A stretch of DNA of 33,237 nucleotides from an uncultured Bacteroidota bacterium (lineage in GTDB: Bacteria > Bacteroidota > Bacteroidia > JABEUT01): contig CAIPDV010000071.1 in NCBI GenBank assembly GCA_903863935.1, positions 1 to 33,237 of the forward strand, read 5' to 3'. The translations under genes and the position numbers were made by a program. Below are positions 2,355 through 22,760 of this stretch, piece by piece. Under the pieces are notes generated by a model, which was not told the DNA's origin, searched no databases, and worked only from the letters and a program-made list of their open reading frames with translations. How positions within the stretch are numbered: position 1 is the stretch's first letter; each line of letters opens with the position of its first letter.

Positions 2355-2924
2355 ATGAGTTTAGCACAATATTATAGGAAATATGTTTTTTGTTTAGAAG
2401 GGGACTGGCAAAAAGACCTGCGCGATAATTCGAGCGTGCGGGCAGCCCTTAATTTCCTTGAACAGAATTGTAAGATAAACTACATTTATAAGCAGTGCGG
2501 TACCCGCGAAAACCTGGAGTATTACCTTTCACTGTGGCAACAGAAAAAGTACAAAGATTACTCCATTTGTTACTTTGCATTTCACGGGCAACCGGAAAGC
2601 ATACAAGTGGGTAAAGAGTTTGTAACGCTCGATGAACTGGCCGATATTCTACAGGACAGTTGCCACGATAAGATCATCCACTTTGGAAGTTGCAAGACCC
2701 TGAATACCGAAGAGAAGAACATCCGCCGCTTTTTGCAGCACACAGGTGCACTGGGTGTTTGTGGTTTCGAAACAGAAATTAACTTTGTGGAAAGTTCCGC
2801 TTTCGATATGATATTGATAGAAATGTTTCAGCAGTATAAGGATATTGCAATGCTCGATAAGAACATCCGCAAGAACTACCGCGGCACAGTGAAGAGGCTG
2901 CAGTTTAAACTTGTTTACCAATAA
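2355..2924 (+). CDS. CHAT/caspase-like small protein (DUF6642-like)
   Basis: A 189-residue protein without signal peptide, predicted cytoplasmic. It has a strand-Phe-His-Gly motif (YFAFHGQP, His at about 77) and then a strand-Gly-Ser-Cys motif (IIHFGSCKTLN, Cys at about 113). This His...Cys order and spacing is what is seen in caspase-fold CHAT peptidases, and the whole resembles the DUF6642 group. Catalysis is inferred, not shown, and no substrate can be named. The start at 2355 is preferred over 2271 because a -7 box lies between them and the extra N-terminus does not fit. Its TAA shares one base with the ATG of the next gene, indicating translational coupling to the four membrane proteins downstream. 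The repeat-bearing partner domains often fused to CHAT proteins are absent. Confidence 0.6.
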   Translation: MSLAQYYRKYVFCLEGDWQKDLRDNSSVRAALNFLEQNCKINYIYKQCGTRENLEYYLSLWQQKKYKDYSICYFAFHGQPESIQVGKEFVTLDELADILQDSCHDKIIHFGSCKTLNTEEKNIRRFLQHTGALGVCGFETEINFVESSAFDMILIEMFQQYKDIAMLDKNIRKNYRGTVKRLQFKLVYQ

Positions 2925-4852
2925 TGGCGAATAAGAAACCTGTACAAAGGGCTATAATAAAACCTAAAGGTGCACAGGCGCCGGCACTTCCGCCGGTAAC
3001 TCCCGTATTCCCGTTTAATTTTAAAACCAAACTCATCATTCTTGCATTGCTGAGTTTTGTTATTTATGCCGATACACTTGGTAATACCTATTGTCTGGAT
3101 GATGGAATTGTAATTGAAAAGAACCGCTATGTTCAGCAAGGGTTCAGTGGCATTGGAAAGATAATGACCACTGATGCCTACGATAGTTACTATAAAGAAA
3201 TGAATGCTGGTCAGCAATTGTCCGGTGGACGTTACCGCCCACTGTCAGAAGTTATTTTCGCTATAGAACATGCCATTTTCGGAGAATCGAAAGACAATCC
3301 TATACCGTTGGAAAGACACATGATAAGTGTGCTGTTCTTTGTGGCGGCCGTGCTGGCAATATTTTACTTTCTCAGTAAGTACTTGCTCTTCAAATTCCGT
3401 TATGGGGAAGATATGGCCTTCTTTGCTTCGGTACTCTTTGCGATACATCCTATCCATACGGAAGTGGTTGCTAATGTAAAAAGTCTGGATGAAATCTTGT
3501 CTATACTTTTCATTTGTCTTACCTTTATTTTCAGTCTTCGCTACATCGATTTCAAGAAACCAAAAGACCTTATTATAGCGTTAGTGTCATGCTTCATGGC
3601 TCTTCTTGCTAAGGAGTATGCAGTGATTTTAATAGTGATACTTCCAATGTGTTTTTATTTGATACGGAAGAAATCTGTTTCCGAAGCTATCATTGATTTT
3701 GCACCTTATGTTCCTGTGTTTTTTGTTTACTTCCTTTTACGGGGGCATGCCGTAGGCTTTAATGGCCACATTTATACCAACGAAATATTGGATAACCCGT
3801 ACTTGCTGGCTACCAAGACTCAAAAAATAGGGACTGAATATTTTGTACTTCTGAAATATTTGTGGCTGCTTATTTTCCCTTATCCGCTTGTAAGCGATTA
3901 TAGTTATGCCCAAATACCTTACAAAGATCTTTTTAGTTTGCCCGTTATTTTTACTATTCTTCTTTACATTGGAATTGTTGTTTTTGGAATACGACTTTTA
4001 ATAAAAAAGAATGTACTTTCAATACCGGTTTTCTTTTATCTGTTCAACTTGCTTATAGTTTCCAACCTTGTAATGGACATTGGCGCAACTATGGGCGAAC
4101 GTTTGATATTCCATTCATCATTGGGTTTTGTTGTATTAGTTTCGTATGGATTATTTGAACTGGTAAAGAAATGGGATATTCAAAAACAACGGTCGTTGGT
4201 ATTTGGTTTGACTGGTGCATTAGTAATTGTTTTCGGATATCAGACCATGGCCAGGAACCTGCAATGGAAAAGCGATGTAACATTATTCATTCACGACGTG
4301 AAAACGGGTCCTAACAGCATCATGTTGAATGGCAATGCAGGTGCCCGTTATATTGAATTGGCAGATACCTGCAAAAATATGGCTAACAAAAGAGCCATGC
4401 TCGATTCATCTATCCGCTTGCTGCGTAAGTCAATTTTTCTGCATAAGCGAAGTGCGTATGTTAGTAGCTATGTGAATATGGGTGATGCATATTATCAATT
4501 GCAAATGCCCGACAGTGCTGAAGTCTACTGGAAAGAAGTTAGAAATGCTTACCCCAATTATCCCGACTTGGCGAATTACTTCTTCATTTTAGGTCGGCAA
4601 TACCTTACAATAGGGGCCGACATGGGCCAGAAGCAACATAACTACAGGGGTGCCATAAATGAAATGAAAAAAGGCCTTCGGATAAGTCCGAATGATGCTG
4701 AGATATGGTATAATTTAGGTGGGGTTTATTTTACAATGGGCATATTGGATTCTGCTTATATTGATTGGAATCAGACGTTGAAACTTGACCCGAAACATGC
4801 CGAAGCAAAGAAAGGATTGGGTTCTATAACGGTGAAAAAGAAAGATAACTAA
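2924..4852 (+). CDS. TMTC-like GT-C membrane protein with TPRs, copy 1
   Basis: A 642-residue integral membrane protein. It has a basic, Pro-rich N-terminal tail (1-36), then TM1, then an extracytoplasmic loop starting with an Asp-Asp pair (59-60) in LDDGIVIEKNRYV. GGRYRPLS follows, then many TM helices with HPIHTEVVANVKSLDE, LAKEYA and GATMGERLIFHSSLG, and from about residue 470 a soluble region with TPR-like helices. The DD-x-x-x-I-x-x-N-x-x-V, HPxHTE, KE and ER-x-x-x-x-S-x-G landmarks match eukaryotic TMTC proteins, which are GT-C-fold O-mannosyltransferases using dolichol-phosphate mannose. By analogy it may move a sugar from a lipid carrier to an exported protein; donor and acceptor are unknown. 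It starts inside the stop of the CHAT-like gene. Confidence 0.7.
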   Translation: MANKKPVQRAIIKPKGAQAPALPPVTPVFPFNFKTKLIILALLSFVIYADTLGNTYCLDDGIVIEKNRYVQQGFSGIGKIMTTDAYDSYYKEMNAGQQLSGGRYRPLSEVIFAIEHAIFGESKDNPIPLERHMISVLFFVAAVLAIFYFLSKYLLFKFRYGEDMAFFASVLFAIHPIHTEVVANVKSLDEILSILFICLTFIFSLRYIDFKKPKDLIIALVSCFMALLAKEYAVILIVILPMCFYLIRKKSVSEAIIDFAPYVPVFFVYFLLRGHAVGFNGHIYTNEILDNPYLLATKTQKIGTEYFVLLKYLWLLIFPYPLVSDYSYAQIPYKDLFSLPVIFTILLYIGIVVFGIRLLIKKNVLSIPVFFYLFNLLIVSNLVMDIGATMGERLIFHSSLGFVVLVSYGLFELVKKWDIQKQRSLVFGLTGALVIVFGYQTMARNLQWKSDVTLFIHDVKTGPNSIMLNGNAGARYIELADTCKNMANKRAMLDSSIRLLRKSIFLHKRSAYVSSYVNMGDAYYQLQMPDSAEVYWKEVRNAYPNYPDLANYFFILGRQYLTIGADMGQKQHNYRGAINEMKKGLRISPNDAEIWYNLGGVYFTMGILDSAYIDWNQTLKLDPKHAEAKKGLGSITVKKKDN

Positions 4853-4853
4853 C

Positions 4854-6794
4854 GTGGCAGCACCAGGTAAAAAGCAAATAGTAAAACCTGCACCGGTTGC
4901 AAAGCAACCAACTATTTTCCCGTTCACATTCAAAATGAAATGTCAGATACTAGCTTTGATCGGGCTTGTATTTTATATCAACTCATTCACCAGCAGGTAT
5001 GCACTGGATGATAATATTGCTATAGAACGTAACTCTTATGTTCAAATGGGAATAGCGGGCATTCCGAAAATATTGACTACTGATTCGTACTACAGTTATT
5101 ATAAAGATATGGGCGGAGACCCTGCCCAACAGCTTAAAGGCGGCAGGTACAGGCCATTATCGGAAGTGGTTTTTGCTATTGAAAAAACCATGTTCGGCTG
5201 GCTTGATGCCAAACCTGATAGCAAAGATTCGAAAACTGAGCCAACCTTTATACTGGCGCATATAATGCATCTGGTAAATATTGTTGCGTACATGTTTTGC
5301 CTGATAGCCATCTTTTATTTTCTCGATAAGTTTCTACTGGCTAAAATTCCCGGTGGAGGCGATATGGCTTTTCTGGCAACTGTTTTATTTGCCATACACC
5401 CTTTGCATACAGAGGTTGTTGCCAACATAAAAAGTCTTGATGAAATACTTTCCATAGGGTTTATCATGCTCACTTTTATTTATAGTTTGAAGTATCTGAG
5501 AGAGAAAAAAAGTAAGCAACGCTTATTGGCAGGTTTGTTTTTGTTGCTGGCACTTCTCTCTAAAGAATATGCATTGACTATGGTTTTCTTCATCCCGTTT
5601 TTATTTTATTCTATCGAGAAAAAGAAACCTGCAGAAGCATTGCTGGCCAGCTTCCCTTATTTTGCAGTAGTGTTTATATACATTCTTTTACGTTTGAATG
5701 CTGTGGGCTTCAATAATACAGTGGTAGGGTCAACCGATATTTTATCCAACCCATACCTGTATGCAACCCACACCCAGATAAGGGCTACAGAGTGGTTTGT
5801 TATGGGCAAATACTTAGGATTATTATTTTTCCCTTATCCACTTTCATCCGACTATTCTTACTACCAGATCAAGTATCACGAATTTACAGATATTACGGTT
5901 ATACTTTCCATAATGATCTATCTCGCAATAATTGTTTGGGGCGTCATTCTCTTCCGGAAAAAGCATGTGTTAGCCTTTGCTATTCTCTTCTTCCTGTTCA
6001 ATATTTTCATGATATCGAACTTTGTAATTGATATTGGGGCAACAATGGGTGAGCGTCTGGTATTCCATTCATCCTTAGGGTTGGTAATTATTTTGGCATA
6101 TTATATTGTTAAACTTTCGGCTAAGGTCCCTATGGAAATGAAGAAGATTATCGTGTTTGGGTCAGTATCTGTAATTGGAATCGTTTGTCTTGGGGAGACG
6201 ATAATGCGCAATACCCAATGGAAAGATGATCAAACCTTATTCATTCATGATGTTGGCGTAGTGCCTTACAGTTGCAGAGTAAATAATAATGCCGGATGGG
6301 GTTATCTCGGGCTTTCAGAAAGAGTTGGTAATACTGTTGAACAGGCTAAAGCCTATTTGGATTCAGCTCATAAATATTCCTTAAGGGCATTATATTATGA
6401 CCCGAAGTATGAAGGGGCGTTTTTAAATTTGGGTGGCGTATTCCTTCACCAGGGGTTACTTGATAGTGCCAAGTATTGCTGGGATATGGTGGAGAAGATA
6501 CATCCGAATTATCCAACTTTGCCTCCAAAGTATGTGTTGCTCTCGCAATTCTATTTTTCAAAAGGGCTTGAGTTTGGAAAGAATGGCAGAGCGCAGGAGG
6601 GTATCGTTTACCTCAAGAAAGCCTTGATTCAGGATACCGCCAATTTTACAAATATTTGGTATAACCTTGGAGGGGCTTATTACACTATCCAACAATACGA
6701 TTCGGCACGATACGCCTGGAATATGGCCTTGCACTATAACGCAAACAATACAGATGCTCAAAGAGGTCTGCAGGCACTATCACAAATAAAATAG
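4854..6794 (+). CDS. TMTC-like GT-C membrane protein with TPRs, copy 2
   Basis: A 646-residue paralogue of the preceding gene. It starts at a GTG only one base after that gene's TAA, so translation is probably coupled. It keeps the Asp pair (52-53, in ALDDNIAIERNSYV), GGRYRPLSEV, HPLHTEVVANIKSLDE, LSKEYA and GATMGERLVFHSSLG. It differs by a longer insertion after the RYRPLS segment (a Lys/Asp-rich stretch near residues 118-130). The C-terminal third holds TPR-like units, the last with a DSARYAW signature shared with copy 3. All residues expected to matter for the GT-C site are retained, so it does not look like a decaying copy. An alternative is that it is a TPR-bearing membrane scaffold without enzyme activity. 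Confidence 0.7.
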   Translation: MAAPGKKQIVKPAPVAKQPTIFPFTFKMKCQILALIGLVFYINSFTSRYALDDNIAIERNSYVQMGIAGIPKILTTDSYYSYYKDMGGDPAQQLKGGRYRPLSEVVFAIEKTMFGWLDAKPDSKDSKTEPTFILAHIMHLVNIVAYMFCLIAIFYFLDKFLLAKIPGGGDMAFLATVLFAIHPLHTEVVANIKSLDEILSIGFIMLTFIYSLKYLREKKSKQRLLAGLFLLLALLSKEYALTMVFFIPFLFYSIEKKKPAEALLASFPYFAVVFIYILLRLNAVGFNNTVVGSTDILSNPYLYATHTQIRATEWFVMGKYLGLLFFPYPLSSDYSYYQIKYHEFTDITVILSIMIYLAIIVWGVILFRKKHVLAFAILFFLFNIFMISNFVIDIGATMGERLVFHSSLGLVIILAYYIVKLSAKVPMEMKKIIVFGSVSVIGIVCLGETIMRNTQWKDDQTLFIHDVGVVPYSCRVNNNAGWGYLGLSERVGNTVEQAKAYLDSAHKYSLRALYYDPKYEGAFLNLGGVFLHQGLLDSAKYCWDMVEKIHPNYPTLPPKYVLLSQFYFSKGLEFGKNGRAQEGIVYLKKALIQDTANFTNIWYNLGGAYYTIQQYDSARYAWNMALHYNANNTDAQRGLQALSQIK

Positions 6795-6809
6795 CTAATT
6801 CAATTATTG

Positions 6810-6817
6810 TATATTTG
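6810..6817 (+). promoter_or_regulatory. Possible internal -7 box before copy 3
   Basis: TATATTTG matches TAnnTTTG in the 31-base gap between copies 2 and 3, only 8 bases before the ATG at 6826. No -33 box is seen, and the resulting transcript would be almost leaderless, so this may be chance. Confidence 0.25.
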
Positions 6818-6825
6818 AAGCAATA

Positions 6826-8739
6826 ATGGCTAAGAAAACTATCAAACCTATTCCACAACCTGCCTCTGCTGCATTGCAGCCTTTGTTTGATTTCCCTGCA
6901 AAGACAAAATATTTTATTCTGATTGTAATCGGGTTGATATTTTATGGTAACACTTTACTAAACACATATGCACTTGATGATAATGGAGTGATATTAGGTA
7001 ACAAGTATGTTCAGGATGGATTTAAGGGCATTGGTAAAATAATGACTACCGATGCATATGACAGTTACCTGGCACAGTTACATGCCAGCCAAAGTTTTAC
7101 AGGTGGTCGTTACCGTCCGCTTTCAATTGTGTTTTTTGCTATAGAGCAAAGTCTGTTTGGCGATAATGCAGGTATCAGGCATTTTATAAATATCCTCTTC
7201 TTTATCGCAACGGTTTGTGCAATATTTTATTTTCTTTCTAATTTTCTGTTGAAGAAAATGCCGAGGGGTGAAGACTGTGCTTTTATTGCGGCTGCTCTGT
7301 TTGCAATACATCCGTTGCATACAGAAGTTGTTGCCAATATTAAGAGTTTCGATGAGATACTTTCCTTGTTTTTTATCCTTCTTACGTTCATTTTCAGTCT
7401 GGAATATATTAAACGGAACGATTCAAAGTTTCTCATTTTCGGAATGGGAAGCTTCTTTTTTTCTTTGTTGGCAAAGGAGTATGCAATAATGCTGGTGGTA
7501 TTGTTACCAATGCTTTTCTATCTGTATCCTTCTGAAAATAAAAAGGGCTTTATACTATCAAGCATTCCATATTACATAACTGCATTTGTATACATAATTC
7601 TCAGGTTCTCTGCTGTCGGTATTCCCCATTCCAATGCGGGAGTTAAGTATATTAACAACCAGTTGCGAATGGACCCATACTACCTTGCAAGCCCTTTACA
7701 AAAATTTGCAACAGAATGGTATGCGCTTGGAAAGTATTTATTCATGTTATTTGTCCCTTATCCATTGGCTTGTGATTATTCCTACAATCAAATTCCCTAT
7801 AAAAACTTTGCGGACATTACCGTTTGGCTGTCCATTGCTGCATACATAGGTTTATTATATTGGGGTTATAAGTTACTTAGGAAAAAGGATGTAATGGCAT
7901 TGGCTATATTTTTCTTTTTGCTTACACTCGTTCCAATCTCTAACTTCTTAATTAATGTGGGTGCAGTATATGGCGAGCGATTTGATTATCATGCATCGCT
8001 CGGTTTTGTAATTATAATGGCCTGGCTTGGTATCCGGTTAACCCGCAAAATAGAATTTACCAAACGAAAGATGGCTATTATTGGAGTAATGGGTACATTG
8101 GCTATTGTTTGTGCATACGAAACAATAACCCGTAACACCGATTGGTATAACGATAACACATTATTCATGCACGATGTTAAGGTAGTTCCGAATAGCGAAT
8201 TTGCCGATTGCGATGCATCAGTAGGGTATATAAACCTATCTATGGATAGGGCAAATGCTTCCCGTAAGACACACATGCTTGATACTGCGGTGATGCTTTG
8301 CAAAAGGGCCATTGCTCTCGACCCTTCATTCCCTGACCCGTTTATTAATGCCGGCATGGCGTATTACTTTTTATCAAACCTTGATTCAGCCAAATATTAT
8401 TTCGATATCGTTCAGTCAAGATTGTATCCTAACCATCCGAAAGTTAAAATCTTTCAACCGCTTTTAGCGCGAGCCTATTTTAATAAAGCAGGTATGGTTG
8501 GAGCAAATAACCCGATGATTGCATTAACAGAAATGAGGAAAGGTATTAGCGAAGATTCTACTAATGCGGAGTTGTGGTATAATATAGGGGTTGCTTATGC
8601 GAATACACAGCGTTTTGATTCGGCACGGTACGCCTGGCTAAAAACCCTGCAATTAAACCCGGATACCGGCATTGCCAAAAATGCGCAAGGTGCATTAAAT
8701 TCGTTGCGGGTTGTGCCGGCAAATGGTACCAAACACTAA
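6826..8739 (+). CDS. TMTC-like GT-C membrane protein with TPRs, copy 3
   Basis: A 637-residue paralogue, ATG start, 31 bases after copy 2. The Asp pair is at 51-52 (ALDDNGVILGNKYV). It is the most divergent of the four in one landmark: the usual GATMGERLIFHSSLG region reads GAVYGERFDYHASLG, keeping the Gly-Glu-Arg but changing the residues after it. HPLHTEVVANIKSFDE and LAKEYA are present. The C-terminal TPR region includes LWYNIGVAYANTQRFDSARY, typical of a TPR helix pair. The change near the ER motif could mean a different acceptor or donor preference among the copies; this is inference. Confidence 0.7.
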   Translation: MAKKTIKPIPQPASAALQPLFDFPAKTKYFILIVIGLIFYGNTLLNTYALDDNGVILGNKYVQDGFKGIGKIMTTDAYDSYLAQLHASQSFTGGRYRPLSIVFFAIEQSLFGDNAGIRHFINILFFIATVCAIFYFLSNFLLKKMPRGEDCAFIAAALFAIHPLHTEVVANIKSFDEILSLFFILLTFIFSLEYIKRNDSKFLIFGMGSFFFSLLAKEYAIMLVVLLPMLFYLYPSENKKGFILSSIPYYITAFVYIILRFSAVGIPHSNAGVKYINNQLRMDPYYLASPLQKFATEWYALGKYLFMLFVPYPLACDYSYNQIPYKNFADITVWLSIAAYIGLLYWGYKLLRKKDVMALAIFFFLLTLVPISNFLINVGAVYGERFDYHASLGFVIIMAWLGIRLTRKIEFTKRKMAIIGVMGTLAIVCAYETITRNTDWYNDNTLFMHDVKVVPNSEFADCDASVGYINLSMDRANASRKTHMLDTAVMLCKRAIALDPSFPDPFINAGMAYYFLSNLDSAKYYFDIVQSRLYPNHPKVKIFQPLLARAYFNKAGMVGANNPMIALTEMRKGISEDSTNAELWYNIGVAYANTQRFDSARYAWLKTLQLNPDTGIAKNAQGALNSLRVVPANGTKH

Positions 8740-8753
8740 TTTATTCCGGTAAT

Positions 8754-10631
8754 GTGGCTGTGGCTATAAAAAAGAAACCGGTTCAATCTGCTCTGCTTAA
8801 AAAGCCTGCCCCTGCCATTTTTAATTTTCAGGGTAAAGTAAAATATGCGATCCTCGCTATCCTTGCAATATGTTTTTATGCCAACTCATTTTCCAATGAA
8901 TATGTGCTGGATGATGAAGCCATTATTCAGCACAATGAATATGTTCAGAAAGGGTTCTCAGGCATCGGGAAAATCCTTACCAGTGATGCGTATGACAGCT
9001 ATTTTAAGCAAACCCAGGCCAATCAACATCTCGCCGGAGGCCGATATCGTCCGTTGTCGATCGTTTTGTTTGCAGTTGAGCATCAGTTATGGGGAGAGTC
9101 ACCGCAAAGCAGGCATGTTGTAAATATTCTGCTTTATGTTTTATGTGTGCTTGCTATATTTTATTTTCTGCGGAATTATTTGTTGAAAAAAATGTCTTAC
9201 GGCGAGGACATTGCATTTATATCGGCTATCCTCTTCACAATACATCCTATACATACGGAGGTTGTTGCCAACATTAAAAGTTCCGATGAAATTCTTTCCA
9301 TGTTATTCATCATGCTCACCTTTATTTTTAGTATTAAATACAGGGAGACTAAAAAGAAAAATTCACTTATAATTGCTTTGGCCGCTCTTTTCTTAGCTTT
9401 ACTTGCAAAGGAGTACGCATTGACTCTTGTGTTGCTACTACCACTTTTATTTGCGCTTTATTTCAAAGAGAAGATTTTAAAAGCTGTAGTGAGTTCACTG
9501 CCTTATTTTGGGATAATCCTATTGTATATTGTTGTTCGCATTGGGGCAATTGGGTTTCCACACCAGGCAGGGCAGCTTGATATTTTAAATGATCCGTATC
9601 TGTTAGCAACACCACTGCAAAAAATTGCATCAGAGATTTTTGTCTTGGTACGGTATTTAGGTATGTTGATTTTTCCTTATCCGCTGGCTGCCGATTATGG
9701 ATTTGCCCAAATACCTTATAGCAGTTTTGCAAGCCCTTTTGTATGGTTGAGTGTATTGGTTTATGGAGGAGTTATTTACTGGGGAATAAATTTATACAGG
9801 CAAAAAAACATGCTTGCATTCCCGGTTTTTTTCTTCCTCTTTAATTTATTAATGATCTCGAATTTCATTCTGAACATTGGTACTACCATGGGAGAGCGGC
9901 TCATATTTCATTCTTCACTTGGGTTTGTAATTATTGGAGGATGGGGACTTGTTAACCTAACAAAAAAATTGAATGCACCTCAAAAAAAGCTAATTATAAC
10001 CAGCGTACTCGGAGTATTAATACTTGTATGTTTTATAGAAACAATTAACCGCAACAACGACTGGAAAAGCAATTTCACTCTTTTTACAAAGGATGTGAAA
10101 ACGGTTCCGAATAGTGTTCTGGCAAATAATAAAGCGGGACTTGAATATGTGAATTTAAGTGAGACTATAAAGGATACGGTTAAGTCAGATTCTATTGCCC
10201 ATAAAGGGATTCTGTATTTGAAGCATGCTGTTCAACTGGATGAATCGGACGTGAACGGATATTTAAATTTAGGTATTGGTTATTGCCAGTTAATAGAACC
10301 TGATTCGGCCAAGTATTTTTGGGATATTGCAAAAAGACTTTACCCTGAAGAACAGCACCTGACCGACTATTATGCCCTCGTTGAAAAAATATTGTTTTAC
10401 AAAGGGCAGAAATATGGCGGGCAGAGAAACTTTAAGTTATCTATTCATGAGTTTGAAACTGGAATACAAGTTGACTCAACCAATGCAGATATGTGGTTCT
10501 ATCTTGGCGGAACATTCTTCAACAGCCAGCAGTTTGATTCGGCAAAACATGCCTGGCTTAAAGTAAAACAGCTAAATCCTAATTATCCTGATTTGAATCG
10601 GTGTCTGCAGATGCTACAGACGGGACAGTAA
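8754..10631 (+). CDS. TMTC-like GT-C membrane protein with TPRs, copy 4
   Basis: A 625-residue paralogue that starts at GTG, 14 bases after copy 3. An ATG two bases upstream is in another frame and stops at once. The Asp pair is at 53-54 (VLDDEAIIQHNEYV); GGRYRPLSIV, HPIHTEVVANIKSSDE, LAKEYA and GTTMGERLIFHSSLG are all kept. The TPR region covers roughly residues 480-620 and ends with FDSAKHAWLKVKQLNPNYPD. It closes the five-gene operon. Its last 53 bases overlap, on the opposite strand, the 3' end of the GyrA-CTD-like gene. Confidence 0.7.
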   Translation: MAVAIKKKPVQSALLKKPAPAIFNFQGKVKYAILAILAICFYANSFSNEYVLDDEAIIQHNEYVQKGFSGIGKILTSDAYDSYFKQTQANQHLAGGRYRPLSIVLFAVEHQLWGESPQSRHVVNILLYVLCVLAIFYFLRNYLLKKMSYGEDIAFISAILFTIHPIHTEVVANIKSSDEILSMLFIMLTFIFSIKYRETKKKNSLIIALAALFLALLAKEYALTLVLLLPLLFALYFKEKILKAVVSSLPYFGIILLYIVVRIGAIGFPHQAGQLDILNDPYLLATPLQKIASEIFVLVRYLGMLIFPYPLAADYGFAQIPYSSFASPFVWLSVLVYGGVIYWGINLYRQKNMLAFPVFFFLFNLLMISNFILNIGTTMGERLIFHSSLGFVIIGGWGLVNLTKKLNAPQKKLIITSVLGVLILVCFIETINRNNDWKSNFTLFTKDVKTVPNSVLANNKAGLEYVNLSETIKDTVKSDSIAHKGILYLKHAVQLDESDVNGYLNLGIGYCQLIEPDSAKYFWDIAKRLYPEEQHLTDYYALVEKILFYKGQKYGGQRNFKLSIHEFETGIQVDSTNADMWFYLGGTFFNSQQFDSAKHAWLKVKQLNPNYPDLNRCLQMLQTGQ

Positions 10632-11223
10632 CACTGTTAAACTCATCTCCCGGCTTCAGGTAATATCCTACAGTATTCAAGCCTTTGCGGTAATATTCAG
10701 GGTCGGCAAATTTCACACCCTCTAATTTTTTTACTTTCAAAACAGTACTGCCATCTTTTGCTTTCACTACATGAAAGCCTTTGGTGGTTCTGCTACCCAC
10801 AGGATTTATCTGGCTGGTATTGAATAGGACTACTTTATTGATACTGCTTAATGCCACCAGGTCAATATCATCTATAACATGTTCAATAAAAATCAATTTT
10901 GATTCGTTGTTATAAGCACTATTAAGTTTCTTGCGCTTGGTTTCGGTTTCATAACTTGAGAAGTTAATTTTAGCAACCTTACCATTTTCAAATGCGGCTA
11001 TCAGGTAACCAGAGTAGGTTGAGGTGCCGGTCATGTAAATGGGTTTTTCGCCAGCCTCAAATAATATCTGACTTAATATCTGGCTATTGCTGCTGAAAGA
11101 TGTGTTTTGCACTTTATAAACATTATAAAATGTTGTAAATACAAGCACTTCGGAATAGGTGAGAACATTGCTGTCTATTTTTATTTTTACTTCAGGTTGA
11201 TGCTGTAAATCGTGTGTTTCCAT
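10579..11223 (-). CDS. Stand-alone GyrA C-terminal pinwheel-like protein
   Basis: A 214-residue protein with no breakage or winged-helix domain. Two segments align by eye with blades of the DNA gyrase A C-terminal beta-pinwheel. One reads GYLIAAFENGKVAKINFSSY and runs to a conserved Asp-Asp-x-Asp. The other reads LVALSSINKVVLFNTSQI and continues with NPVGSRTTKGFHVVK; the matching part of E. coli GyrA has the same SEI-x-x-VGR-x-TQG layout. In gyrase this domain wraps DNA. On its own it may bind or bend DNA, or have been taken over for another role. It ends in an acidic Ser/Asp tail. It converges on and overlaps the fourth TMTC-like gene by 53 bases and diverges from the DinB-like gene. A weak -7 box (TACTTTTA on the minus strand, 11249-11256) lies upstream. 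Confidence 0.6.
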   Translation of the reverse strand: METHDLQHQPEVKIKIDSNVLTYSEVLVFTTFYNVYKVQNTSFSSNSQILSQILFEAGEKPIYMTGTSTYSGYLIAAFENGKVAKINFSSYETETKRKKLNSAYNNESKLIFIEHVIDDIDLVALSSINKVVLFNTSQINPVGSRTTKGFHVVKAKDGSTVLKVKKLEGVKFADPEYYRKGLNTVGYYLKPGDEFNSVTVPSVASADTDSNQDN

Positions 11224-14168: not shown

Positions 14169-14894
14169 TTACACATCATTCTTAGTAAGATGATGTTTGT
14201 GTTTCTTTTTGAAGAGATACCCTACAGAAATATAATAGAGTGTGCTTTTTTCTGGTGTATACGTTTCTGAAATATTGGTACCGGGCAAATAAATGGTAGA
14301 TGTCCTGTTTTTAAGAAAATCAAATAAGTAATATTTGAAACGTATGTAAGAACCACTGTGAAAGCGCAATTCACCAAAGACTGAAGGGTTAAATAAATTC
14401 ACATCCTGGGAAGAGAAGAGCGGATCATTAATGATGGATTTGCCACCATTGTATAATACTTTCTGTTTAAATGCAAACATGCATTCAGCTTCAGCCCCAG
14501 CGGCAATATAAGTACCCGATGGCATATTGCCCAACTTAAAAGCAAGCGGTACGCCAACGCTATAGGAACGCTGTTTAATGGTAGCATCGTATGAATCCGA
14601 CAGTTTATTAATGAAGCCCACATTTATAATGGAGAATCCGGTGTACATACCAAACGCTTTTCCAAAATCATAATGGAACTGATGTTGTACGTGAAAAAAA
14701 CACGTAAAGCGCAAAACACTGGCAAGGTCCTTTCCACCGTCATTCACGTTACCGCCTGAGAATATCAACTCTGCGCCCGACATTCCATACCATGTATTTA
14801 CAGGAGCTGCATTCATCTGCGCAGGTGTTAGTTCCTGAGCTTTGGTTGCAAATACGCTTAAAACAATAATTGCCGTTACTACTATTCTTTTCAT
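14169..14894 (-). CDS. Outer-membrane beta-barrel protein (PorT-like fold)
   Basis: A 241-residue protein with a signal peptide (ends ATKAQ). Alternating-hydrophobic strands include YIRFKYYLFDFL and a final strand YYISVGYLF, as in small Bacteroidota beta-barrels (outer membrane beta-barrel/PorT-like domain). A tail of about 12 residues rich in His and Lys follows the last strand, so the protein does not end in the usual terminal aromatic residue. It starts 9 bases after the DUF1501 stop, so it is probably co-transcribed with DUF1800 and DUF1501. It may help that pair at the cell surface; this is inferred from position only. Confidence 0.6.
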   Translation of the reverse strand: MKRIVVTAIIVLSVFATKAQELTPAQMNAAPVNTWYGMSGAELIFSGGNVNDGGKDLASVLRFTCFFHVQHQFHYDFGKAFGMYTGFSIINVGFINKLSDSYDATIKQRSYSVGVPLAFKLGNMPSGTYIAAGAEAECMFAFKQKVLYNGGKSIINDPLFSSQDVNLFNPSVFGELRFHSGSYIRFKYYLFDFLKNRTSTIYLPGTNISETYTPEKSTLYYISVGYLFKKKHKHHLTKNDV

Positions 14895-14903
14895 ACTTCT
14901 TTA

Positions 14904-16118
14904 TTACACAAAATTCATCAATTCAAACTTTTTACCAAGCACTTTTTCGGAACCTGTTCCCAAAACCTTTTCCAGCAAAGTGGCATATACTTGCCTGAAA
15001 TCGGTATTATAAACTAAATCACCTTCATCCAGGTTTTGCAGGTCAGCCATTGGGTTGTAAATACCGGCTTTGTTGAGTTTTCCTCCAATTACATAAATAT
15101 TATTTGCCGTGCCATGGTCGGTTCCACCACTTGCATTTTGAGCTACACGGCGACCAAATTCGGAGAAGGTCATAATTACGGTGTCATCAAATTTACTGTT
15201 GTCTTTTAAATCCTGGCAAAGCATATTCAACCCTTCGGAAAGACTCTTCAGCGCCCTGCTCTGTTGGCCTTTCTGGGCCACATGTGTATCGAATCCGGAT
15301 AATGAAATATAATAGACCGAGGAATCGCAACCTGAACAAATCAGCTCAGCAATTGTTTTCAGTCGGTTGCCAAAAGCATTATTTGGGTATATACGCGAAG
15401 ATTTAAATGTTTTTGAGTGCGCATAAATATAATCGGCTGATTCCATCGTTTCTGCCAGTGTTTTTTGTAAATACTCAACCTCGGGATGATCGCTATTGGC
15501 TTTGTAATTATTTGCAACTCCTCTGATAATCGGGTTTTGAGATGTACTATGCAACAAGTTCGGATTGCTGAATGCAAGTCCTTTCATTACATCTCCTTTA
15601 AGGGAAAGACTTAGTGTATCGTCAAGTTCTACAGCAGAAAATGGTTTAGCACAGGTTCCGCTGCATGTTGCATCGAGATACCTTCCCACCCAACCGGAGT
15701 ATACATATTGGTTTTCTTCGCTGGCGGATTGCCATATATCCATGCTCCTGAAGTGGGAACGGTTTGGGTTCGGGTATCCAACTGAATTTATGATTGCCAG
15801 ATTACCATTGTTAAACAAATCTGCAAAGCCTTTCAGATTGCTGTTCAGGGCTACCTCATCTGTTATTTTAATAATATCATCATCTTTCAAACCGAGGGAT
15901 GGGCGAGCTTTGTAGTACAAATCATTCCGGAACGGAATTACACAATTCAGACCGTCATTACCACCCGATAATTGAACCACAACGAGGCGTTTACCTGATG
16001 GATTTACAGGCATGGTATAAAGTCCATTTTTGTTAAGTCCAAACGCTTTTAAAAAGCTAGGAACCATCATTGATGCGGATGCAAGTGCTGAATTCCTTAT
16101 GAAATCTCTCCTATTCAT
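14904..16118 (-). CDS. DUF1501 family protein, Tat-type leader
   Basis: A 404-residue protein starting MNRRDFIRNSALASASMM, a twin-Arg leader typical for DUF1501. Family landmarks are VVQLSGGNDGLNCVIPFRND near residue 50, SGFDTH near 275, and FSEFGRRVAQNASGGTDHGT near 320. DUF1501 belongs to the sulfatase/alkaline-phosphatase-like superfamily, but its activity is not established. It is encoded 3 bases after the DUF1800 gene, the usual arrangement in Bacteroidota and Planctomycetes. The product is presumably exported folded by Tat. Confidence 0.9.
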   Translation of the reverse strand: MNRRDFIRNSALASASMMVPSFLKAFGLNKNGLYTMPVNPSGKRLVVVQLSGGNDGLNCVIPFRNDLYYKARPSLGLKDDDIIKITDEVALNSNLKGFADLFNNGNLAIINSVGYPNPNRSHFRSMDIWQSASEENQYVYSGWVGRYLDATCSGTCAKPFSAVELDDTLSLSLKGDVMKGLAFSNPNLLHSTSQNPIIRGVANNYKANSDHPEVEYLQKTLAETMESADYIYAHSKTFKSSRIYPNNAFGNRLKTIAELICSGCDSSVYYISLSGFDTHVAQKGQQSRALKSLSEGLNMLCQDLKDNSKFDDTVIMTFSEFGRRVAQNASGGTDHGTANNIYVIGGKLNKAGIYNPMADLQNLDEGDLVYNTDFRQVYATLLEKVLGTGSEKVLGKKFELMNFV

Positions 16119-16121
16119 AAC

Positions 16122-17516
16122 TCAGATCAATTGAAATTCGGGTAAGGTCATTATAGCGGCCATGCTTAAAGTGAGATTATCTTTATCAGAATCGGTCCAG
16201 GTTGTTTTTAAAAGATTGCGGTCAATCCGGGAAGTATCGCACTGTATAAAATATTCAAGCATGCTATCCATTTGCGATTCTGCCGGAAGGTTTTTAAATG
16301 CATTATCCAACGCAGTCCAGTCCGATTCTATTTTACCTCTTTCGTCCTCCGGTGGCATATCTTCCGGGTTTTCTTCAAAGTGAGGTTTTGCTTTTATTTT
16401 TAATCCGACTCCGCGAATTATATACATTGGCATACTCAAACGCAATAGGAGGGAAGTACTGTCGATCCATGTATTGCCACCTTTCCAGCCTGCCACATTG
16501 GGTGGGAAAAATAATACTTGGCCCAATGCTTTCTGAACGTCAATTAAGGTTTTGTTATTCTTTGCTTCAACGCTTACTAATTTTTTAAAACGTACAATTA
16601 ATTCAACCGGAGAAATAACTTTCGCTCCTATATTTTCATCATCGTAAAACCAATCGGAAGTGAATATCTCACGCATCAAGACACTAATATCATAGCCTGA
16701 TTTGAAGAAGCTGTCTGCAAGTGTTTGCACTCTGTCTGTATTGACAGTTGGATTGACAAACTCGCGGTATATTTTTGTACAGAGATAAACTGCAACCTGT
16801 TTATTGCTCAAAATAATATCAAGAATATCTTCTCCTTTAAAATTTCCTTTTTGCCCTAAAAACTCTTTTTCGTCAAAATCATGGACCTTTTCGTTGAACA
16901 CGAATTGGCCTTTACCATCCACTTCCCAACCGGTGAAAGCACGGGCACCTTCCTTAATATCTTTTTCGGTATAGTTACCTACACCAAGTGTGAACAACTC
17001 CATCACCTCTCTTGCAAAGTTTTCATTAGGATGGGCTTTTTTATTTTGCTGGTTGTTCAGGTAAATAATCATGGCAGGGTCTTTGGCAATTGCATGAAGT
17101 AGATCGCCAAACTTTCCGAGGGCATTTCTCCTCAATGTATTATTCTGCTCCTGCATCAGGTAAGCCAATGGAGTTGATGTTGAAAAATGATTATGCCAGA
17201 AGAATGTCATCTTTTCCCGCAATACTGCGGGCGTATAGGTCATTTTGAAAAGCCACTCATTATTCAGCTCTTCCATTTCTCCAAAGGATTTCAAGAACAT
17301 TTTTATGAGTTTAAAGCCACCAACACCATTTTTTTCCTCATTTTCCTTTAAAGGGTAAGGGAGATAATTAATGTCCTTGCATTCTTGTGATTCGGTGAAC
17401 AACCCATCCACAATTTTGGAGATAGGAGCATTTAAAAGAGAATTGATACGGTCGGGTGTTTCACCAAAACCAGCCCTCAGAAATAAATGTTGTATTTTCT
17501 TTTGTGCAGTTGCCAT
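16122..17516 (-). CDS. DUF1800 family protein
   Basis: A 464-residue protein of the DUF1800 family. Landmarks are HLFLRAGFGETPDRI at the start, MTFFWHNHFSTS near residue 105, NENFAREVMELFTLGVGNYT near 165, GARAFTGW, and PNVAGWKGGNTWIDS near 340. No obvious signal peptide is seen, though family members often have one. The biochemical role is unknown; it nearly always sits next to DUF1501, as here. It is the first gene of the minus-strand operon running to 14020. A near-match -7 box (TAACTTTA) lies upstream. Confidence 0.9.
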   Translation of the reverse strand: MATAQKKIQHLFLRAGFGETPDRINSLLNAPISKIVDGLFTESQECKDINYLPYPLKENEEKNGVGGFKLIKMFLKSFGEMEELNNEWLFKMTYTPAVLREKMTFFWHNHFSTSTPLAYLMQEQNNTLRRNALGKFGDLLHAIAKDPAMIIYLNNQQNKKAHPNENFAREVMELFTLGVGNYTEKDIKEGARAFTGWEVDGKGQFVFNEKVHDFDEKEFLGQKGNFKGEDILDIILSNKQVAVYLCTKIYREFVNPTVNTDRVQTLADSFFKSGYDISVLMREIFTSDWFYDDENIGAKVISPVELIVRFKKLVSVEAKNNKTLIDVQKALGQVLFFPPNVAGWKGGNTWIDSTSLLLRLSMPMYIIRGVGLKIKAKPHFEENPEDMPPEDERGKIESDWTALDNAFKNLPAESQMDSMLEYFIQCDTSRIDRNLLKTTWTDSDKDNLTLSMAAIMTLPEFQLI

Positions 17517-17544
17517 TTTCCGAAATTAGACTTTAATACGGCGA

Positions 17545-17552
17545 TAAAGTTA
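17545..17552 (-). promoter_or_regulatory. Possible -7 box of DUF1800 operon
   Basis: Read on the minus strand this is TAACTTTA, one base off TAnnTTTG, 28 bases before the DUF1800 ATG. No clear -33 TTTG was found. Confidence 0.3.
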
Positions 17553-17593
17553 AATCGGAAAAATGAATGTTAAATGAATTTACCTGAAACCCT

Positions 17594-20161
17594 TTATTCT
17601 ATTACGATTTTCTTCTCCAGGTTTTGGTTTTGTCCTATTATGGTGAACATGTAAATACCCTTGCCAAAGGCCGAAAGGTTAATAGAATTGGTAAAATGCC
17701 CCTTAACATTTATTTTATCGGAATAGACTTTTTGTCCCATTATATTGAATACCGATAAGGTGTATTCTCCCGAAGTCAGTATATCCAAATCGAAATTTAT
17801 TTTTCCATTACTTGGGTTAGGATATACTTTCAATCCTGCATTATTATCCGCAATTGTATTTATGCTAGTTGTATTGGTATATGTAGGTGTTTCCCAAACA
17901 CCTCTTCCATAGCTAGCTGCAAGCAGGTTGGTATTTCCATCGACTATTTTCAAATCATTAACCATTACGTTTGGTAAACCTGTGTTATAAGATATCCATG
18001 CATTTAAAATGGTATCGCGGTAATAAACTCCTTCATCGGTTCCGACATATATTCCCGAGTGATTACTGGGTTGGAAAACAATACAATTTACTGGCAAGTT
18101 TTGCAATCCATTCGAAATATTGGTCCAGGTAGTACCTCCGTTATATGTTTGGAAAACCTTTGCCGTATCAACATATCCTGAGAAGGTAACCCATGCATGA
18201 TTGTAATTAGTAGGATCGAGTGCTATGCCGGTCATCCATGCAACGCTTACCGGTAAATTTTTTGTTATGTTCTTCCATGCAGGGCCTCCTGTAGTTGTCA
18301 TCCAAATCGAATCATGCCAGCAGGCATATAATACTTTATCGTTTGAAGGGTCTACAACAAGGGCAGTTATTCTATTGTTACTTGAAGAAAAAGAACTTAT
18401 TTGGGTCCATGAATTACCGCGATTGGTAGTTTTCCATATGTTCGAAAATCCTGCAAAAAGCGTAGCTGAGTTTTGTGGGTCCTGCAACCAGCGTGTAACC
18501 CAGGGGCCATTTTCCGAAATACTTCCGGCAATATAGCTCCAACTTAAACCTCCGTTATAAGAGCGGTACAAGGCACCGTCCTGTGATGCACTGTACATAG
18601 TATTATCATTGGAATAATCAATGAAAGGAACCATTCCATCCCCACCATTTACTTCATTCCAGGGTAAGCCGGATTCATTGGTACCGTTATCCTGCCAGCC
18701 TGAAAGCCATAATCCGGAAGTCAATGTAGATGGGCCTATTGCATAAATTTCTGCTATTTCAAGATTGTTGCTTAAATCGGTATAGGTGAGCCCGTGATTG
18801 GTTGCTTTAAAAATTCCACCATCGCAAGCATCGTACCATGATGCACCACTACCCGGAGTAAATATATAATGATGGCCATCGGCATGTGCATATGGACTTC
18901 CGCCGGAGGACGCATTCAAACTCCAGGTTGTGCCTCCGTTGGCTGACAGGTATACATCTATGCCACCGGTTAGCACTGAATCGACATTAGTTGGTGACAC
19001 AGCAAGTGGTAAGCCATACCATCCATAAGCCATACCGAGGCTACCGGCGCTGGAATTGGAGCGTTGCGTAAAGGTTTGGCCTCTGTCTGTGGAGCGATAT
19101 AATCCGTAATAACTCCAACTTGAGGCATCTTCAGCTACTACATAAACATAATTCGAATCGGCTGGTGTAACGGCAATAGTCATTCTGGCAGTAAGTCCGA
19201 AGGCCGGTAATCCGGTTATTGTTTGGGTGTATGTCTTTCCCCCATCAGTAGAACGGAAAAACTTTCCATCACCTGTAGCTGCATAAACGGTTGATGGATG
19301 AAATGGTTCAAATTCCACTGACTTGAAGTATTCGGTATCTTCCTTTGCCCATGTGGCTCCGGCGTTAGCAGAGTAATACATTCCGCTGGAAGTAGCTGCT
19401 AAAATAATATTAGTGTTTGATGGATTTAACGCAAGTTCAGTTACAGTTCCGTAAGCAGGGCCCGTACTTTGTTGTGTATACGATAAACCCGTAGGGTTCC
19501 AGGTATTCCCTCCATCGGTAGACTTTAGCACACCAATTGTTGAAATAGACCAAAAGTCAGCACCCGGTCCATCACAGTCCCCGGTTGCGAGATACATCAC
19601 ATTCGGGTTTGTAGGGTCAATTGCAATATCACTAGTACCAAGTTCAGTAAGTTGATCCGTATTTGTTGACCAAGTGGTTCCACCGTTTGTTGTTTTCCAT
19701 AGTCCTCCGGTAGGAGCACATGCAAACACAGTAGAACTATTTCCGGGATAAAAGCGCAAACGGTTTACTCTGCCATCTCCGCCATAGGTAGGAACACTTG
19801 TATTGCCTTTGTATGCCCAACTTGCAGTTGATTGAGGTTTGTCTGCATTTTTTGTTTTACTATCATTCCCGTTGTTGGTAGACCTTGAAATGTTTACAGC
19901 AGGAATATTACCACTAGGGTACGAACGGGCTTCCATTAGCCATTCCCAGCGTTTATATAAAGAATAATTATTATCTTCTTTTTCTTTATCCCCACCATTT
20001 TTCACATCTGTCTTTGGTTGGGATTCATTCCATTTACTAAAGGCTTTTTGCACATCTTTAAAGTTGGTCTTCCCATCTTTCATCATTCTCGCCCAGTCTT
20101 GCCCAAATAATGGAAGTGATAAAATAGAAAACGCAGCAAAAATGAATGTGTATTTTTTCAT
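17594..20161 (-). CDS. T9SS-secreted Asp-box (BNR) repeat protein, copy 2
   Basis: An 855-residue secreted protein. It has a signal peptide (ends LSLPLFGQ), a charged linker, and about eleven Asp-box-like motifs of the type S-x-D/N-G-G-x-T-W (for example KSTDGGNTWNPT) spread through residues 140-700. These mark sialidase/VPS10-type beta-propellers. The last ~75 residues are a T9SS type A sorting domain: LKVYPNPSNGKINFDL, then FNIMGQKVYSDKI, ending LEKKIVIE. It should therefore cross the outer membrane by T9SS and be attached or released at the surface. No glycosidase catalytic residues can be assigned, so binding or hydrolysis are both open. It begins 22 bases after its paralogue and is likely in the same operon. 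Confidence 0.85.
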   Translation of the reverse strand: MKKYTFIFAAFSILSLPLFGQDWARMMKDGKTNFKDVQKAFSKWNESQPKTDVKNGGDKEKEDNNYSLYKRWEWLMEARSYPSGNIPAVNISRSTNNGNDSKTKNADKPQSTASWAYKGNTSVPTYGGDGRVNRLRFYPGNSSTVFACAPTGGLWKTTNGGTTWSTNTDQLTELGTSDIAIDPTNPNVMYLATGDCDGPGADFWSISTIGVLKSTDGGNTWNPTGLSYTQQSTGPAYGTVTELALNPSNTNIILAATSSGMYYSANAGATWAKEDTEYFKSVEFEPFHPSTVYAATGDGKFFRSTDGGKTYTQTITGLPAFGLTARMTIAVTPADSNYVYVVAEDASSWSYYGLYRSTDRGQTFTQRSNSSAGSLGMAYGWYGLPLAVSPTNVDSVLTGGIDVYLSANGGTTWSLNASSGGSPYAHADGHHYIFTPGSGASWYDACDGGIFKATNHGLTYTDLSNNLEIAEIYAIGPSTLTSGLWLSGWQDNGTNESGLPWNEVNGGDGMVPFIDYSNDNTMYSASQDGALYRSYNGGLSWSYIAGSISENGPWVTRWLQDPQNSATLFAGFSNIWKTTNRGNSWTQISSFSSSNNRITALVVDPSNDKVLYACWHDSIWMTTTGGPAWKNITKNLPVSVAWMTGIALDPTNYNHAWVTFSGYVDTAKVFQTYNGGTTWTNISNGLQNLPVNCIVFQPSNHSGIYVGTDEGVYYRDTILNAWISYNTGLPNVMVNDLKIVDGNTNLLAASYGRGVWETPTYTNTTSINTIADNNAGLKVYPNPSNGKINFDLDILTSGEYTLSVFNIMGQKVYSDKINVKGHFTNSINLSAFGKGIYMFTIIGQNQNLEKKIVIE

Positions 20162-20183
20162 GGAACTATTTTTTTAAACGGAC

Positions 20184-22760
20184 TTAGTATAGAACGATCT
20201 TCTTCTCCATTGACTGGCCTTTACCGCTAATGGTAAAGAGATACACACCTTTGCTATATCCTGAAAAATTAAGCGATGAGGAATAATTGCCCGACACATT
20301 TAATTTATCGGAATAAACTTTTTGTCCCATTACATTATAAACTGACAATGTATATTCACCTGAACTTAAATTATCCAAAACAAAATTTATTTCTCCATTC
20401 GTTGGATTAGGGTAAATCTTGATACTGTTATTGTCTTTTGTAATGTCATTAACACCGGTGTAAACAGGAGTAGACCATACACCACGCCCGTAAGTAGCCG
20501 CAAGAAGTGTATTCGTTGGTTTGAATATTTTCAAATCATTAATGGTAACGTTTGGAAGATTTGTATTGTAAGGAGTCCAAAACGATAAAGTGGTATCACG
20601 AACGTAAACACCTCTATCTGTACCTACGTAGATACGTTCATCATAACTGCCTGTTTGGTAAACAACGCAGTTTACAGGAAGGTTTGGTAATCCTACCGAA
20701 TAATTAACCCATGTGTTTCCGCCATCCTTTGACATATACACTTTATCAGATCCTGAGTAACCTGAGAAGGTTACCCAAACGTGATTGGAATTAGTTGGGT
20801 CTAATGTGATATCACTTATTCCGGCATTTCCAACCGGTAATCCTGGAGTGATATTTTTCCATGTGGTTCCGCCATCCGTTGTTTCTTCAATCCTTCCGGG
20901 TTGTGCCGCATACATTACATTGCTGTTTGCCGGGTCAACAGCCATCGCGCTGATAAAATAGTTTGTATCTCCCCAAGTGCTCATCTGAGTCCAGGCTGTT
21001 CCCTGGTTTATAGACTTCCATACATCATGAAAGCCGCTATAAAGAGTTGTTGGAACTGTTGGGTCTTGTATCCATTTTGTTACCCATGGGCCGGTTCCTA
21101 AGCCTGTATTTATAGCTGTCCATGCCGCACCATTGTTGGTAGAAATTTGGAGATCGCCTTGGTAATTTTCAGCATACCAAACTCCATCGTTTGAATAATC
21201 GATGAATGAAACCATACCGTCTCCGCCTAAAACCTGTTCCCAGAAAGGGCTTGATACGTTTACACCATTGTCCTGCCAGCCTGAAAGAGAAAGCCCTGCG
21301 GTAGAACCTGAAGGGCCTATATTGTAAAGTGCGGCAACATGTAAATTATGACTGATATCTTTCCAGGTATTAGCTTGTGTTCCTTTAAACACACCGCCAT
21401 CGCATGCAATGTAATAATTCGAGCCGCTTCCAGGCGCAAAACTGATAGAATGCACATCGGCATGAACGTAGGGGAAAAGAATACCAAGGTAAAGTGTTAT
21501 CAAATTCCAAGTGGCACCTCCGTCAACAGAAGCATAATTATCCAATCCACCTTCAAGCAATGAATCGCGATTGGTGGGAGATACTGCTAGTGACATGGTA
21601 TACCACCATTGGTATTGGATCTGGTCGCTTGTAGACATATTGGTAAATGTTTGTCCTCTGTCGGTTGAACGATACGTTCCGGTTTGTCCCACAACCATGT
21701 ATACATAGTTTGAATCAGCTGGTGTAACGGCAATTTTTATCCTGTTCATTGCAGAATCTTTAGGAATCCCTGCTGTAATTTTTGTAATGGTATTACCACC
21801 ATCATCTGAGCGATAAAATTGTCCGTTAAAAGTACCTGCATAAATTGTGTTGGGATGGAAGGGTTCAAACTCTATTGATTTAAAATCACCTGTTTGTAAC
21901 TGAGTCCAGGTTGAACCTGCATCGATAGTGCGATAAAGCCCAAATGAACATGCGGCATATAAAATGGCAGTATTGGATGGATTGATCAATAGCTGGTTAA
22001 CAGTAGTAAATGCAGGTCCGCTAGTAGATTGAGAGTATGATAACCCGGTTGGATTCCATGTAACACCTCCATCGGTTGATTTCAAAACCCCAACAGTTGA
22101 GAGCGTTGTATATCCTCCCATTATTCCATCGCCGTCTCCGGTTGAAACATAACGGATATTAGTATTAATATGGTCAATCGCAATATCGCTTATTGACATG
22201 TCTTGCAAGTTGTCTGTATTCGTGGTCCATGTTGCTCCTCCGTCTGTCGTGGTCCAGAGTCCTCCGGTAGGGCTGCACGCAAACATAATATTGTTATTTC
22301 CAGGCATAAATCGCAGGTAGTTTATTCTGCCATCGCCACCGCTTACACTGCCAAATCCACCAATGGATGGTGGTACAGAATCATTCCCGGCATAAACCCA
22401 ATTGGCTGCGGACATTGGCGAATTATGATTTACGCTTTCCGTTTTTTGGGTCTGCAAAAAAGCGGCATATTGTTTTGCTATTTCACCTGATTTAGGTCTT
22501 TCTCCATTTGGAAAGGTGCGTGGTTCCATAAACCATTCCCATCTTTTAAACTGAGCATAGTTTCCATCATCTTCTTCTTGTTTGGCTAACTCGCCGGTAG
22601 AAGGATGCGTTTGCTGATAATTGGAATACCAGCTATAAAATGCATTTTGAACATTGTGCACATTGGTGCTCTGGTCCTTCATCATACTTGTCCAATCTTG
22701 TGCAATAATTGGTAAGGATAGAAATGACAAAGCCGATAGGGCGTAAATAATTTTTTTCAT
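20184..22760 (-). CDS. T9SS-secreted Asp-box (BNR) repeat protein, copy 1
   Basis: An 858-residue protein, first in the two-gene minus-strand operon. Signal peptide (ends LSLPIIAQ) is followed by DWTSMMKD, nearly the same as DWARMMKD in the downstream copy, so the two are tandem duplicates. It carries about ten Asp-box motifs (KSTDGGVTWNPT, ETTDGGTTWKNI, MSKDGGNTWVNY) and a T9SS type A domain beginning IKIYPNPTNGEINF and ending MEKKIVLY. The propeller sections differ in detail between the copies, with some boxes eroded (for example RTIDAGSTW, KSINQGTAW), pointing to an old duplication. Both also share the phrase LSGWQDNG and a Gly-Asp-Gly-Met region. The target at the cell surface is unknown. 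Confidence 0.85.
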   Translation of the reverse strand: MKKIIYALSALSFLSLPIIAQDWTSMMKDQSTNVHNVQNAFYSWYSNYQQTHPSTGELAKQEEDDGNYAQFKRWEWFMEPRTFPNGERPKSGEIAKQYAAFLQTQKTESVNHNSPMSAANWVYAGNDSVPPSIGGFGSVSGGDGRINYLRFMPGNNNIMFACSPTGGLWTTTDGGATWTTNTDNLQDMSISDIAIDHINTNIRYVSTGDGDGIMGGYTTLSTVGVLKSTDGGVTWNPTGLSYSQSTSGPAFTTVNQLLINPSNTAILYAACSFGLYRTIDAGSTWTQLQTGDFKSIEFEPFHPNTIYAGTFNGQFYRSDDGGNTITKITAGIPKDSAMNRIKIAVTPADSNYVYMVVGQTGTYRSTDRGQTFTNMSTSDQIQYQWWYTMSLAVSPTNRDSLLEGGLDNYASVDGGATWNLITLYLGILFPYVHADVHSISFAPGSGSNYYIACDGGVFKGTQANTWKDISHNLHVAALYNIGPSGSTAGLSLSGWQDNGVNVSSPFWEQVLGGDGMVSFIDYSNDGVWYAENYQGDLQISTNNGAAWTAINTGLGTGPWVTKWIQDPTVPTTLYSGFHDVWKSINQGTAWTQMSTWGDTNYFISAMAVDPANSNVMYAAQPGRIEETTDGGTTWKNITPGLPVGNAGISDITLDPTNSNHVWVTFSGYSGSDKVYMSKDGGNTWVNYSVGLPNLPVNCVVYQTGSYDERIYVGTDRGVYVRDTTLSFWTPYNTNLPNVTINDLKIFKPTNTLLAATYGRGVWSTPVYTGVNDITKDNNSIKIYPNPTNGEINFVLDNLSSGEYTLSVYNVMGQKVYSDKLNVSGNYSSSLNFSGYSKGVYLFTISGKGQSMEKKIVLY

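Follow-up and report, generated by a model that had tools for sequence, protein, structure and literature searches.

Four TMTC-like putative glycosyltransferases encoded in one operon

Why would an uncultured member of the Bacteroidota carry four consecutive genes for membrane proteins that resemble eukaryotic TMTC O-mannosyltransferases, and what might their products do? The OTase for the core O-glycan of Bacteroidota is undiscovered, and a review from 2025 points to homologues of eukaryotic O-mannosylation (PMC12871550). Judged by its sequences, the TMTC-like family described here would be a set of O-mannosylation homologues of the kind that this review suggests, and is a candidate for a missing step in Bacteroidota protein glycosylation; with the sought OTase it would have in common that a lipid-linked sugar is transferred by an enzyme facing the periplasm. 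The family is present in 161 of the 295 genomes of the class and, owing to this patchy presence, it is not obviously the phylum-wide O-OTase; the same distribution lowered our regard for the simple equation of the two. New in the present analysis are an orthologous array of four lineages with variable copy number, the genus-wide loss of a conserved arginine (Arg188), and a DUF6642 gene as the start of the operon. The reading that we favor, and consider rather probable, is that the four proteins are periplasmic polyprenyl-phosphate-sugar GT-C_A transferases acting on exported proteins, the copies having diversified in donor or acceptor.

Four GT-C/TPR paralogues behind a DUF6642 gene

In the window, i.e., the whole stretch of 33,237 nucleotides that was analysed, the operon consists of five genes on the plus strand. 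A DUF6642 (PF20347) gene (2355..2924; Pfam E 9.8e-39), absent from the account of the first-pass annotation, comes first and shares an ATGA stop/start overlap with copy 1. It is followed by the GT-C/TPR proteins, copy 1 (2924..4852, 642 aa), copy 2 (4854..6794, 646 aa), copy 3 (6826..8739, 637 aa), and copy 4 (8754..10631, 625 aa). These ORF coordinates agree exactly with the head-to-tail paralogues of 625-646 residues, separated by 1, 31, and 14 bases, that the first-pass annotation had described. Copies 2, 3, and 4 are 46, 45, and 46% identical to copy 1. The motifs listed there, Asp-Asp (D59-D60 of copy 1), HPxHTEVVAN, Lys-Glu, Gly-Glu-Arg, and Ser-x-Gly, are unchanged across all four copies, each copy has a Pfam match to C-terminal TPRs (4/4), and the reported differences between copies are seen as well: an insertion follows residue ~120 of copy 2, in the first outer loop region, and the ER motif of copy 3 is unusual (GERFDYH, not GERL(I/V)FH). 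In an alignment of 78 homologues (copy 1 numbering), D59/D60, H175/P176, K230/E231, D325, and G391/E392/R393 are invariant. Since orthologous arrays of 4, 5, and 5 genes occur in the same order in three other genomes, the array is neither due to chance nor an assembly artefact.

GT-C kinship, fold, and topology

Membership of the four proteins in the GT-C clan is supported by sequence profiles. PMT_2 (Pfam) scores above its cut-off of 26.1 bits in copies 1 and 4 (37.1 and 31.6 bits, respectively), and in a profile-profile comparison the family (165 sequences) matches ArnT-like proteins over 158 columns with 93.5% probability (E 2.3e-7), against 2.4% for the reversed ArnT profile used as control. 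In this alignment, the RP of GGRYRP and the KE region are in register. The match required a broader profile pair than a narrow profile against one sequence: with hhalign, the narrow profile (A4) gave no signal against the single E. coli ArnT sequence, not rising above an ammonium-transporter control, and the narrow profile found no match among PDB sequences.

The AlphaFold2 model of copy 1, built from the 78-sequence alignment (mean pLDDT 92.9, pTM 0.91), can be read as 11 TM helices followed by TPR hairpins. The outer loops contain D59-D60 (first loop), Asp325 (fourth loop, a long one), and Glu392-Arg393 (fifth loop), while HPIHTE closes TM3, KSxDE opens TM4, and Lys230-Glu231 lie between TM5 and TM6. 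Basic residues are concentrated on the predicted cytoplasmic loops, a positive-inside pattern that places the N-terminus inside and predicts periplasmic TPRs. The best 50 matches of a Foldseek search of the PDB with this model are all TPR structures, found by the TPR part of the query, so that the GT-C fold is assigned from sequence profiles and topology; TPRs likewise dominate the matches of the full model in viral libraries.

Comparison with TMTC and ArnT

TMTC1-4 O-mannosyltransferases (CAZy GT105), whose human members attach sugars to secreted proteins, and the array copies, by their predicted topology, have in common an 11-TM GT-C domain, DD in the first outer loop, HPIHT ending TM3, KE, D, and ER in EL3, EL4, and EL5, respectively, and C-terminal TPRs on the outer face. 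In TMTCs the TPRs are luminal (PMC7801869), and C-terminal TPRs are a TMTC hallmark that has been proposed to recruit protein acceptors (PMC11292533). In contrast to TMTC1-4, the array copies are bacterial and possess fewer TPRs. Four of the seven TMTC motifs are altered or missing. M1 (DD in EL1) is kept in 78/78 sequences. In M4 (KE(T/Q)xxT), KE is invariant, Tyr stands in place of T/Q, and the final Thr occurs in copies 2 and 4 only, and in M7 (ERxxY) ER is found in all four copies, followed by Tyr in copy 3 and Phe in copies 1, 2, and 4. M2 (SHKSYRP) is not kept, with GGRYRP or GGRFRP in all sequences and YRP as sole remnant. In M3 (RxD, EL2) Arg is replaced by L/L/F/S in copies 1-4 and the acid is retained as D-E, in M5 (DW) Asp is retained and Trp is replaced by Tyr in all sequences, and M6 (PxxP, TM9) is missing from all copies, copy 3 having a single Pro. 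TMTC_DUF1736 (Pfam, cut-off 27) reaches 19.7, 17.1, and 20.0 bits in copies 1-3 and gives no match in copy 4; in a six-frame search it goes up to 23.8 bits. Hence, of the TMTC-like layout proposed by the first-pass annotation, the GT-C homology, the architecture, and the topology (N-in, 11 TM, TPRs outside) hold, but strict TMTC membership does not, with TMTC_DUF1736 below its cut-off and M2, M3, M5, and M6 differing. As several TMTC-defining features fail, we file the proteins as a TMTC-like GT-C_A family and not as TMTC.

With ArnT and other GT-C_A enzymes of the PMT_2 type, the copies share the profile-profile match and, in copies 1 and 4, the PMT_2 domain; ArnT is devoid of TPRs and acts on lipid A, whereas the array copies have TPRs. 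This profile kinship, together with the richness of the source genome in other GT-C/TPR paralogues, would suit enzymes acting, like ArnT, on a surface glycan or lipid such as LPS core or capsule and not on proteins, their TPRs serving only for enzyme assembly. We think this unlikely, given that periplasmic C-terminal TPRs are the TMTC hallmark for which acceptor recruitment was proposed (PMC11292533) and that the operon contains no glycan or LPS genes. Against the reading that we favor counts the lack of nucleotide-sugar, flippase, and glycan genes in the operon; in its favor, three ArnC-like GT2 proteins encoded in the source genome could make polyprenyl-phosphate sugars.

Extra GT-C/TPR paralogues of the source genome are located at G000:C58:11158-12846 and G000:C113:22581-26398. 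The former is nearer to TMTC, with 28.7 bits for DUF1736 (six-frame) and KETV, DQSYRP, and KSRDE kept, and has orthologues in the genus. A search for plasmids found none.

Duplication history of the array

The order to which the source belongs consists of one genus with 11 sequenced genomes. Array size in this genus is four genes in G010, five in G004 and G006, two in G005 and G008, and one in G002, whereas G001 and G009 carry several array genes on different contigs. In the tree, window copies 1-4 represent four clades with 100/100 support, and each clade also holds the same-position counterpart from three other species (four species in total); two species possess an additional gene of the copy-2 lineage. 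Four orthologous clades at matching positions indicate that the duplications are older than those species and that gene order was retained. An array copy of a relative (G001:C108:10652-12484) contains an in-frame TAA and is either a decaying gene or the result of an assembly error.

Outside the genus, genomes mostly encode one orthologue. Such single-copy Bacteroidota orthologues, for example that of Flavipsychrobacter stenotrophus (NZ_PPSL01000001), have the same architecture at about 40-45% identity, but they read KSRDE where the array copies have KS(L/F/S)DE, are mostly without an upstream DUF6642, and are often adjoined by a divergent NtrY-like kinase or a guanylate kinase. At 25 of 77 loci a divergently transcribed sensor kinase of ~1235 residues (HAMP, HisKA, HATPase) adjoins the single-copy gene, and in the Flavipsychrobacter group a guanylate kinase lies 5' of it. 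DUF6642 itself is flanked by a kinase of matching domain composition and length in L175, where Pfam confirmed the domains, and probably also in L181, as judged from size and position.

Separate tandem arrays exist in the Flavipsychrobacter group (L142, L151, and L152), and a more distant subfamily forms further tandem arrays of 2-5 genes in families f21, f16, and f70. Four copies are therefore not special, as the number ranges from 1 to 5 in the genus and independent arrays occur elsewhere in the class. The multi-subunit machine of four that the first-pass annotation had considered finds no support, since relatives need only one gene, and an obligate four-subunit machine is ruled out by this range of copy number.

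Some independent TMTC-like arrays of 2-4 genes in families f21 and f16 (L230, L232, L233, and L236) have common neighbours. A gene for a protein of 233-234 aa adjoins the array; in L230 and L236 its product is a Crp/Fnr regulator. Farther out lies a gene for a protein of 553-561 aa, in L230 and L236 a multiheme c-type cytochrome, and in L230 and L232 an NHL-repeat propeller is encoded as well. These neighbours hint at a possible link of the transferases with extracellular cytochromes. The 234-aa array neighbour of f21 had been considered as a polyprenyl-P-mannose synthase and turned out to be the Crp/Fnr regulator.

Divergence between copies

Paralogues are 48-52% identical in their membrane part and 34-39% in their TPR part, whereas orthologues are 66-74 and 59-68% identical, respectively. 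From these identities it follows that the TPR part diverged more after duplication than after speciation, which fits weakly with a possible specialisation for acceptors. At the fifth-loop motif, GERFDYH occurs in copy 3 alone and is fixed in four species. The suggestion of the first-pass annotation that the copies use different acceptors or donors thus gains copy-specific fixed residues and a faster divergence of the TPR part in its favor. A plain duplication for dosage, with no specialisation of the copies, would agree with a gene number that ranges from 1 to 5; it seems highly improbable for copies that are ~45% identical, predate the split of the species, and have kept copy-specific residues in four of them.

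Loss of a conserved arginine at position 188

Residue 188 (copy 1) belongs to the KSxDE stretch that opens TM4, in the second outer loop. Of 72 homologues from outside the genus, 71 have Arg here. The genus has lost it: copies 1 and 2 carry Leu, copy 3 carries Phe, and copy 4 carries Ser, and each of these residues is constant in the four species. No other position combines at least 95% invariance outside the genus with a change in all sixteen array sequences. The sole other loss seen is a Cys in L067, the closest relative outside the genus, while independent arrays in other families retain Arg at the equivalent position. With HPIHT (residues 130-134 of human TMTC3; PMC7801869) as anchor and ungapped spacing from there, residue 188 aligns with Arg143 of TMTC3. 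This Arg, part of motif M3 (RxD), is near mannose in models (PMC7801869) and is a proposed sugar contact of TMTCs. The adjoining acid corresponds to Asp158 of ArnT, which touches the acceptor and pairs with an EL3 lysine.

The tree implies that Arg188 was lost in the ancestor of the genus, prior to any duplication, and that shifts to Phe and Ser followed later. We infer that the sugar pocket may have switched donor or acceptor after this loss, which could also mean reduced or abolished activity. A conserved active-site Arg changed in one genus, with four paralogues differing at that very position, constitutes a natural experiment by which the choice of donor or acceptor in TMTC-type enzymes becomes testable.

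DUF6642, the first gene of the operon

The ORF of DUF6642 begins at 2271, and relatives and sequence indicate the ATG at 2355 as its likely start. Numbered along the ORF from 2271, His105 (in AFHG) and Cys141 (in HFGSC) form a caspase-type pair, and both residues are retained in 25 of 27 relatives. L180 and L193 (family f54) encode DUF6642 proteins without the His and Cys of the dyad and represent a degenerate lineage. Although its AlphaFold2 model is poor (pLDDT 57), caspases account for 49 of the best 50 PDB matches listed (E from 1.4e-4). Caspases and other clan CD cysteine peptidases share with DUF6642 the dyad of His-Gly and Gly-Ser-Cys and the Foldseek matches; different from caspases, DUF6642 is a stand-alone protein of 189 aa. 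No sequence match to PDB sequences or to named peptidase families was found. With moderate confidence, we consider DUF6642 a putative caspase-fold protein, and as no signal peptide is evident it is probably cytoplasmic. PADLOC assigns no defence family to DUF6642 or to the GT-C proteins, and no mention of DUF6642 was found in the literature searched, so that its link to a GT-C/TPR array provides a first context.

DUF6642 is located immediately 5' of the array in seven genomes of the genus, elsewhere in G009, and at a contig end in G001. Three families outside the genus, represented by G016, G054, and G028 (the last at a contig end), also have it immediately 5' of the single-copy gene, and in further families it stands alone. 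The linkage had been considered as the cause of Arg188 loss; this was rejected, the relation not being strict, as the DUF6642-linked copy of G054 keeps Arg. A rival proposal is that catalysis has been lost or changed in the array copies and that they act as scaffolds or as sensors of lipid-sugars, perhaps together with DUF6642. Arg188 is gone from every copy of the genus and elsewhere only once, for Cys, and four families, the Cys-bearing one included, show the linkage of DUF6642 to the gene. We nevertheless judge such a role quite improbable, because the remaining catalytic residues are invariant, the copies are strongly constrained, and G054 combines DUF6642 linkage with a retained Arg.

Proposed function

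In the mechanism that we infer, which extends to catalysis, lipid donor, sugar, protein acceptor, specialisation, and the role of DUF6642, the four genes would encode glycosyltransferases of the GT-C_A type in the inner membrane, from a Bacteroidota family related to TMTC as its bacterial cousin. With the Asp-Asp pair of its first outer loop, the membrane domain would take over, on the periplasmic side, a sugar bound to a polyprenyl-monophosphate carrier, and an exported protein would be presented as acceptor by the periplasmic TPRs. From an ancestral single gene, Arg188 would have been lost in the genus, followed by 2-5-fold duplication behind DUF6642, and the copies would then have specialised for donor or acceptor. 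A more far-reaching version, which we regard as possible though doubtful, is that the array copies are protein O-glycosyltransferases, that the loss of Arg188 re-tooled their sugar pocket for different donors or acceptors, and that their output is coupled to a cytoplasmic caspase-like DUF6642, the single-copy relatives being an undescribed TMTC-type protein glycosylation enzyme of Bacteroidota.

Other genes of the window

Upstream of the operon, a gene on the plus strand (873-2159) codes for a protein with seven tandem GloVer (TIGR03803) repeats. On the minus strand, an ORF at 10579-11223, which ends 53 bases inside copy 4, gives a weak match to the GyrA/ParC C-terminus (29 bits) and no Pfam match, and is possibly an orphan gyrase-CTD-like protein or a false ORF. 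Further downstream (14169-22760, minus strand), DUF1501 and DUF1800 genes adjoin those for two large proteins that have sortilin/BNR repeats and type IX secretion tails.
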